A DNA stretch of 33,763 nucleotides from a virus, in IMG/VR virus record IMGVR_UViG_3300042549_010941, positions 1 to 33,763 of that record, one strand, 5' to 3'. The stretch's first letter is position 1. Every line of letters starts with the position of its first letter. Position numbers and translations under genes: made by a program. This document shows, piece after piece, positions 30,720 through 32,482 of this stretch. The notes under the pieces are model-generated. The model did not search any database, had not been told where the DNA came from, and saw nothing but the letters and a program-made list of their open reading frames with translations.

Positions 30720-30890
30720 TTAAGAAAAAAGCCTTTGAAACTTTATCGCATCCTGATTTAATTTTTCTTTCTGGAGCATCGCAATTTTAAAAACTAACTT
30801 CCCTAGTTCCAAAAAAAGAGCATCGGTAGGATGCTCTTGTATTTGTTGCTGCAGTAGAGCACATTTTATTTTCAATTCTTGAATTTCCAT
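30720..30890 (-). CDS. Small coiled-coil protein at the end of the lysis block
   Basis: A 56-residue protein from the ATG at 30890 (MEIQELKIKCALLQQQ). Gln/Leu heptads suggest a short coiled coil. Its start lies inside the last codons of the -1-frame spanin extension (19-base overlap), suggesting coupled translation. The role is unknown. A GTG further upstream is possible but would cut into the spanin frame. Confidence 0.5.
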   Translation of the reverse strand: MEIQELKIKCALLQQQIQEHPTDALFLELGKLVFKIAMLQKEKLNQDAIKFQRLFS

Positions 30891-31033
30891 AAACGGTAAG
30901 CGATGATAGGAATTAATAATAAAAGAAGCCAACACATTGAAAATTTTTTGCTTTCCGTTTCTTTAGAACTGGAAGAACTGTTTTCCTCTAAAGCTTCATT
31001 TTCCCTGCGAGCTTTTATTTCGGAATTTTTTTT
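30872..31033 (-). CDS. -1-frame extension: membrane-anchor part of a probable u-spanin
   Basis: After a ten-A tract the -1 frame stays open for 53 codons: it encodes NSEIKARRENEALEEN, a Ser/Lys/Glu-rich linker, then MCWLLLLLIPIIAYRLW and a basic tail KFKN. No ATG precedes the hydrophobic helix, so it needs frameshifting (or transcript slippage) from the lipoprotein gene. The helix plus basic end fits an inner-membrane anchor with the C-terminus inside. Alternatively the A tract is a sequencing or assembly indel and the two are one plain gene. Confidence 0.65.
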   Translation of the reverse strand, partial: KKNSEIKARRENEALEENSSSSSKETESKKFSMCWLLLLLIPIIAYRLWKFKN

Positions 31034-31404
31034 TTATCAGATAAAGTTTCCTGTTTACTTTGAGTTTTTGAATTAGTTGAATTATCAGTTTTTCTCGAAG
31101 CATCTACTTTTGCGTTTTTCCAAGTAGTTACAAGCTTTCCGTCTTTAACTTCCTGTGTTTTCTCAATGGGCTTGGAAGCATCTATTGGCTCTAGTTTTTC
31201 CGTTTCATCCACTAAATTGTTTGTGATAAGTGTATGGGCCGTTTCTTGAATTGTCAAGTCGCTTTGCTCATCATTTTGCGTCAGGTCAAGAGATTCGACC
31301 GACCGCTCGAGCGTGCTGGATTTATCAGACTGAGACTTGTTTGTTTTTCGAACTCCACAACTGAATAGCATTAATGGAATCAAAAGAAATAATAGTTTTT
31401 TCAT
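31015..31404 (-). CDS. Outer-membrane lipoprotein of the lysis block (probable u-spanin N-terminal part)
   Basis: A 129-residue protein from the ATG at 31404 (MKKLLFLLIPLMLFSC). It has a lipoprotein signal peptide with lipobox L-F-S-C, and a hydrophilic periplasmic part with many Ser/Thr/Lys/Glu. The zero frame stops 11 bases after the ten-A tract (SDKKKIPK). Slippage at A-AAA-AAA into the -1 frame would add an inner-membrane anchor, giving a lipoprotein of about 177 residues tied to both membranes, as in T1 gp11-type unimolecular spanins. It follows the endolysin with a six-base gap. Without frameshift it would be only a lipoprotein. Confidence 0.8.
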   Translation of the reverse strand: MKKLLFLLIPLMLFSCGVRKTNKSQSDKSSTLERSVESLDLTQNDEQSDLTIQETAHTLITNNLVDETEKLEPIDASKPIEKTQEVKDGKLVTTWKNAKVDASRKTDNSTNSKTQSKQETLSDKKKIPK

Positions 31405-31409
31405 AATGT

Positions 31410-31874
31410 TTATATATTTAAAAGTTGAAAATGCATACCGTCTATTCTTGTCCAGGTTCCACCCCACTCAAAGCCGCAATCCGTAAAACACTTTACAAAT
31501 TCTGGAGATAACTTAGGAACCATACGCAATTGGTTTTCTGCTTGGTTTACGTCCACAGCAATTGCCCATGAATGCAGCGATAGGGATTTTAAATCCCTTT
31601 TGTTTCTGATGAAAAATACGCCGTCCCACGTCTTTAATTCATGTGCCAGACCACGACATATTATTGTTCGGAGTGCATTACGCAACGGATCAATCATATC
31701 CTTGTTTAAGAATATTTTCTTTGGAAAGCCAATTGTTCCTAGTGCCGAAAATCGAACATGTGCGAAAGCTTCAAGAATGTCCGGCTCCACTATCCATAAA
31801 ACGAAATGTTTGGCTTGAGTAGCGGGAAGATTTGGATCACCGTATTTTTTTAAGCACTGAGCAGATGTAACCAT
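31410..31874 (-). CDS. Endolysin, M15-family zinc peptidase
   Basis: A 154-residue peptidase expected to cut peptidoglycan stem peptides (L-Ala-D-Glu or D-Ala type) during lysis. The M15 motif SLHSWAIAVDVN gives zinc ligands His101 and Asp108, and DGMHFQL gives Asp145 and His148. No signal peptide, so release depends on the holin. The gene overlaps the upstream membrane gene by one base and is followed by the lipoprotein/spanin gene, a typical lysis cassette. It is not closely related to the host M15 dipeptidase at 366-1004, which has a signal peptide and other motifs. Confidence 0.9.
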   Translation of the reverse strand: MVTSAQCLKKYGDPNLPATQAKHFVLWIVEPDILEAFAHVRFSALGTIGFPKKIFLNKDMIDPLRNALRTIICRGLAHELKTWDGVFFIRNKRDLKSLSLHSWAIAVDVNQAENQLRMVPKLSPEFVKCFTDCGFEWGGTWTRIDGMHFQLLNI

Positions 31875-32167
31875 TATCGTTTTAGTTTTTTGAATAAATT
31901 ATCGTCGATTACCTTGGTACACATGAAAATCAGAATCATAAAATTGAAAATGGTTTGATAAACACCTATTTTAATTCTCGATTCGCCGTCAATCATAAAC
32001 GCTGATTTGAAAAGTGTTACACTAAAAAACAGGCAGTATAGCATTAATAGGCCGTACACTATTTTTCGCGCAAAGTTTCGGGATTTTTGGTCCGTATATT
32101 TTATAAAAAATGCCGCGAATAGCATTCCGTATAAAATCCAATTAATTACTAGCAGCATCTTGTCCAT
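31874..32167 (-). CDS. Small three-helix membrane protein, holin/antiholin candidate
   Basis: A 97-residue protein with hydrophobic segments near 5-22, 34-55 and 68-83 and a basic C-terminus. It lies between the holin-like gene (26-base overlap) and the endolysin (one-base overlap), so it is probably a second holin, pinholin or antiholin. No family motif was recognised, and assignment rests on size, topology and place. Confidence 0.65.
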   Translation of the reverse strand: MDKMLLVINWILYGMLFAAFFIKYTDQKSRNFARKIVYGLLMLYCLFFSVTLFKSAFMIDGESRIKIGVYQTIFNFMILIFMCTKVIDDNLFKKLKR

Positions 32168-32453
32168 CTTTGTCGATTGTTTTATTAATGCGTTTAACCG
32201 AAGCCTTCAAAATGCTTTCTAGACCATAAGCAATCACTACAGTAAGCAGAAGCGTCATTTTGATTGATAAATTAAAATACTCCATTAGAGCAGGCGAAAT
32301 GAAAAACGCAACGATTACTGATCCTATTAATTTTCCCGCCAAAACAGTTCGTTTCAGCGCTTCCTTTTCATCTTTGGAAAATATCGCATAAGCTGTAGAA
32401 GTAATGGATGCAAAGAATATTAGCAATTGCGATATGATGTCTTGATCTTTCAT
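32142..32453 (-). CDS. Holin (LydA/phage_holin_3-like)
   Basis: A 103-residue protein from the ATG at 32453 (MKDQDIISQLLIF); a TTG seven codons upstream falls in the promoter-to-start leader. Three hydrophobic helices (about 8-24, 37-58, 63-85) and a basic, charged C-terminus (KRINKTIDKD) resemble LydA-type holins. First gene after late promoter PL-e, followed by the second membrane protein and the endolysin. Identification is by size, topology and neighbours. Confidence 0.72.
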   Translation of the reverse strand: MKDQDIISQLLIFFASITSTAYAIFSKDEKEALKRTVLAGKLIGSVIVAFFISPALMEYFNLSIKMTLLLTVVIAYGLESILKASVKRINKTIDKDGQDAASN

Positions 32454-32482
32454 CGATGTATTATTAGGGTTCAATTCTAAAT

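Follow-up and report, generated by a model that had tools for sequence, protein, structure and literature searches.

The prototype of the unimolecular spanins (u-spanins) is gp11 of phage T1 (Kongari et al. 2018, PMC6139136), and in proteins of this type the lipidated cysteine is the only one in the periplasm (PMC6139136). It has been reported that Bacteroidetes phages use only unimolecular spanins (PMC12596118), and one such protein has been annotated in Cellulophaga phage Ingeline (PMC8776804).

Slippage on homopolymers has been studied in several other systems. Insertions during transcription, mostly of a single base, are found in A/T runs and become exponentially more frequent as the run lengthens (PMC5574713), and selection against long A/T runs is evident in many genomes from a length of about nine (PMC1088944). 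On a run of seven As, E. coli RNA polymerase slips little, with 0.39% insertions (PMC6260861). In the tssM1 gene of Citrobacter rodentium, a run of eleven As before a stop codon results in approximately 20% full-length protein through slippage of RNA polymerase, without ribosomal signals (PMC4256274).

The locus described here lies in a 33,763-nucleotide stretch of viral DNA (IMGVR_UViG_3300042549_010941; the window), whose source is a temperate flavobacterial, Duneviridae-like phage. The major capsid region of the window shares 62% identity with Flavobacterium phage 6H and 44% with laban6-1, both of the Duneviridae. Near the left end, genes for tRNA-Ser, tRNA-Pro and tRNA-Arg (1232-1507) lie between an M15 D-ala-D-ala dipeptidase (366-1004, PF01427) and a phage integrase (1596-2804, PF00589); the region 366-2804 resembles one border of a prophage in the integrated state. 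The features of the lysis region are as follows.

31015..31404, minus strand: frame-0 open reading frame, predicted lipoprotein of 129 aa with lipobox LFSC, homologous to the proteins of loci L061-L073
31026..31035, minus strand: homopolymer of ten As (A10), site of the frame break, read from the sequence
30872..31033, minus strand: -1 frame with its stop codon, carrying the predicted helix SMCWLLLLLIPIIAYRLW, related by homology to single-frame u-spanin C-termini (profile E 1.2e-8)
31410..31874, minus strand: M15-type peptidase, endolysin candidate, directly upstream (PF13539, E 2.5e-13)
32142..32474, minus strand: holin-like membrane protein, a weak assignment (phrog_126, E 0.0012; phrog_6384, E 0.0028)
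30720..30887, minus strand: small downstream open reading frame of 55 aa (MEIQELKIK...), no family match

The frame-0 reading frame starts at an ATG at 31404 and ends at the stop codon 31017..31015 on the minus strand. Its N-terminus, MKKLLFLLIPLMLFSC, is kept among the homologues and carries, by motif, a lipoprotein signal in which the lipobox cysteine is residue 16; the periplasmic part is rich in Lys, Ser and Thr and contains a conserved EKLEPID..KP...KDG..TTWKNAKVD stretch. The last codons are GAT AAA AAA AAA ATT CCG AAA TAA, so that the A10 tract (31035..31026, minus strand) is followed three codons later by the stop. From the tract, 53 codons of the -1 frame (31033..30875) can be read before a stop codon at 30874..30872; they encode (K)KNSEIKARRENEALEENSSSSSKETESKKFSMCWLLLLLIPIIAYRLWKFKN, consisting of a charged linker, a single hydrophobic helix and a basic tail. 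When the two frames are joined, a product of 177 aa is obtained. The only ATG of the -1 frame borders on the hydrophobic segment (SM|CWLLLLL), and a separate start there would therefore yield a peptide of approximately 21 aa without the linker.

This architecture had been proposed in an earlier sequence-only reading, which placed a lipoprotein ending just past ten As, a -1 frame of 53 codons lacking an ATG before its helix, and a joined product of about 177 residues at 30872..31404. On re-reading of the sequence, the coordinates and lengths proved exact and the observation as a whole was confirmed. The same reading expected nine or eleven As to give a plain single-frame gene. Eleven As (one extra) do restore the long frame, as do eight (two fewer), but nine do not, since the frame then entered stops after KFRNKSSQGK. 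The A10 tract is the only A/T run of nine or more within any gene of the window. The small downstream reading frame shares its first 16 nt, from the ATG on, with the end of the -1 frame, and its translation could be coupled to that of the long product.

Several lines of evidence indicate that the -1 frame is more than a chance opening. In 12 other genes of the window, a -1 frame open for at least 50 codons was found at 31 of 6397 codon positions, and at none of these 6397 positions did an open -1 frame end in a comparable hydrophobic segment. The stronger line is homology: when a profile of the homologues' C-termini was compared with six-frame fragments of the window, the -1 reading frame was matched with an E value of 1.2e-8 and there was no second significant match in the window (next best E 0.37), which shows that both halves belong to one protein.

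Homologues were collected from viral contigs in two rounds, the lipoprotein serving as query in the first and an alignment in the second, which gave 13 loci: ten complete (L061-L069 and L071), two truncated at the 5' end (L072 and L073), and L070, which repeats L069. All 12 homologues lack an internal stop and carry the C-terminal helix in frame, and in all ten complete ones the lipobox and the helix share a single frame, a state that the window reaches only if its two frames are joined. The longest A run in L061-L069 and L071-L073 is seven or eight, and none of these homologues has a run of at least eight As at the site of the window's tract. Thus, both halves of the window gene are homologous to single-frame u-spanins, and the break is unique among the clean relatives. 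The sequence-only reading had named conservation of the tract and of both frames in related phages as a check of frameshifting; the clean relatives turned out to be single-frame, with no equivalent tract. No relative more than 45% identical in the spanin protein was found, so that conservation of the tract was assessed only among more distant homologues. When viral contigs were searched for exact copies of this site, the A tract being allowed any length, no match was obtained, and a search of genome contigs with the u-spanin alignment gave none either. In nearly all of L061-L073, seven or eight consecutive As in KKE/SKKE codons (e.g. L063:4261) are retained at a single position of the gene, away from the window's site. 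The conserved seven-A run (SKKE) was considered as a second frameshift site and rejected, its -1 frame stopping within a few codons.

Similar proteins also occur in more distant phages. In phages 6H, 23T, FPSV-D15 and laban6-1, a hypothetical protein encoded between an amidase and an S49 protease has a lipoprotein signal and a C-terminal helix in a single frame, and that of 6H belongs to phrog_19472, a family of unknown function. The unannotated proteins of 6H, 23T and laban6-1 (Duneviridae; phrog_19472) resemble the window protein in layout and in their position between endolysin and S49 protease; unlike the window copy they are encoded in one frame, and tblastn with the window protein gave no match to them, nor to any of the INPHARED phages. 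Similar single-frame proteins precede an S49 protease in L074/L109, L105, L107, L110, L111, L112 and L114, several of which are Flavobacteriaceae bacterial genome contigs; the criteria of this layout scan were simple (lipobox motif and hydrophobicity), and its remote cases are less sure.

Taken as a single product, the gene probably encodes a u-spanin tying the outer to the inner membrane, a likely reading based on homologues that join the lipobox to the C-terminal helix without a change of frame and on the position in the lysis cassette. The u-spanin topology suggested earlier is supported by the same features, and the complete homologues do carry the C-terminal membrane helix, whose absence from relatives would have spoken against it. 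There is no cysteine between Cys16 and the helix, as expected of a u-spanin (PMC6139136). With regard to position, the earlier claim that the gene lies right after holin and endolysin stands for the endolysin candidate, which is directly upstream (PF13539), while the holin call is weak (phrog_126, E 0.0012); the gene thus sits in a lysis cassette with an adjacent M15 endolysin candidate and a weak holin match nearby. Like T1 gp11, the protein has an N-terminal lipobox, a place after the endolysin and no extra periplasmic cysteine, and with its two frames joined it would also have a C-terminal transmembrane helix. It differs from gp11 in that the window copy has a broken frame and its spanin function is a prediction. 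The window protein showed no significant match to any PHROG or Pfam family named as spanin. The periplasmic domain of a u-spanin is expected to be mainly beta; AlphaFold modelling of one homologue (L061) gave strands in the middle, at 48-111, followed by helices, among them one at the C-terminus, at low confidence (mean pLDDT 58.8, pTM 0.16).

From these features and from T1 gp11, we infer the membrane topology and the role in lysis. The joined protein would be lipidated at Cys16, sent to the outer membrane and extended across the periplasm, with the C-terminal helix anchored in the inner membrane. After the action of holin and endolysin, it would be expected to collapse and fuse the two membranes, by analogy with T1 gp11.

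With regard to the origin of the break, the data are best explained, with good confidence, by a u-spanin gene of the ordinary kind whose frame is broken by one base within Lys-rich poly-A, a break private to this sequence, rather than by an evolved frameshift signal. The gene would have been single-frame ancestrally, and the A10 tract would have arisen in a stretch rich in Lys (AAA) codons. In most of the spanin genes compared, approximately 80% of the Lys codons are AAA and runs of seven to nine As are common, which makes a long A run unsurprising. Three points tell against this reading: closer relatives of the spanin protein (above 45% identity) were not found; no other frame break was detected in the window, as described below; and slippage on A10 goes towards restoring the protein, as would equally be expected if the site had been selected for slippage. 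Such a private break could take two forms. The tract may be miscounted or variable, with A11 or A8 giving a plain gene, or A10 may be real, with slippage (mainly RNA polymerase adding one A) giving part full-length protein and the rest truncated lipoprotein.

The first form, a consensus error or strain mixture in which the majority tract is truly A11 (or A8) and the gene a plain single-frame u-spanin, is a serious possibility that falls somewhat short of an even chance. It agrees with the single-frame state of all clean relatives, with the fact that A10 is the only long homopolymer inside a gene of the window, and with the occurrence of contigs with frame errors in the same collection. One of these, L099 (IMGVR_UViG_3300020811_000275), contains a second broken copy of the u-spanin gene, interrupted at two places. 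This copy was considered as a parallel frameshift and rejected as a sequence error, frame breaks being present in many L099 genes; L099, probably an outcome of sequencing error, calls for caution with frameshift claims from this collection. In the window itself, however, no other frame break was detected among the 135 homologous queries with matches there, whereas the same test found dozens in L099. This argues against a generally poor sequence and indicates that the window is generally frame-accurate, which does not fix the length of the single A10 run.

The second form, a real A10 tract with non-programmed slippage that yields truncated lipoprotein side by side with u-spanin, is a plausible reading that is held tentatively. 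Here RNA polymerase would add one A, possibly with some ribosomal -1 shifting on A-AAA-AAA. Both the direction and the tract length fit known slippage (PMC4256274, PMC5574713, PMC1088944), A10 being within the range of in-gene A/T runs (approximately nine or more) regarded as slippage sites (PMC1088944), and the -1 frame remains unbroken and homologous. To judge from other bacteria, some of the protein made from an A10 tract would probably be full length owing to slippage (PMC4256274, PMC5574713, PMC1088944). On the other hand, the arrangement is common to no relative. As in tssM1 of Citrobacter, an A run shortly precedes a stop codon in the gene of a trans-envelope protein, and an extra A in the mRNA would give the C-terminal part. 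The Citrobacter case differs in that it was shown by RNA mass spectrometry and both forms of the protein are needed, whereas the window case is known from sequence alone; moreover, a related Yersinia case is given for tssM1 (PMC4256274), and no related case was found for the window gene.

Among the remaining explanations, a real A10 tract in a non-functional gene, that is, a decaying prophage without its spanin, is unlikely. Given the tRNA cluster, M15 dipeptidase and integrase at the left end, the window could be a provirus in integrated form, in which decay of a lysis gene is conceivable; however, no other broken gene was found in the window and the -1 frame shows no additional decay. It is slightly more doubtful that A10 is real and that the u-spanin is made only via slippage at a set ratio of lipoprotein to spanin, tuning or delaying outer-membrane disruption in the manner of Citrobacter tssM1.

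A conserved programmed -1 ribosomal frameshift setting the ratio of an o-type lipoprotein to the u-spanin is very improbable. The A-AAA-AAA heptamer is present and in the correct frame, but the arrangement is conserved in no relative, and RNA folding after the tract stays at chance level against shuffles (z -0.33, -0.09 and +0.20, in a model that leaves out pseudoknots). The earlier claim that the protein is made by -1 frameshift is thus unsupported as an evolved mechanism, since neither the tract nor a break at this site occurs in any relative, the downstream structure does not exceed chance, and an uncertain or variable A tract explains the data equally well; frameshift dependence as an evolved mechanism is unlikely. 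Three runs of at least nine As with an apparent frame switch in related loci (L012:6018, L027:5678 and L032:9558) were also rejected as frameshifts, being places where one gene ends and a new gene follows. No spanin dependent on frameshifting was found in the literature searched, and we know of no earlier one. Two separate genes for an o-spanin and an i-spanin, to which the lipobox in one frame and the helix in the other might point, can practically be dismissed, as no ATG precedes the helix in the -1 frame, both parts are fused in one frame in the homologues, and the helix is C-terminal, unlike that of an i-spanin.

With these findings, flavobacterial phages and prophages gain a previously unannotated family of u-spanins, whose constant place between endolysin and head protease is useful in annotation. 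If the A10 tract is real and is slipped through, the window gene would be, to our knowledge, the first spanin that depends on frameshifting.
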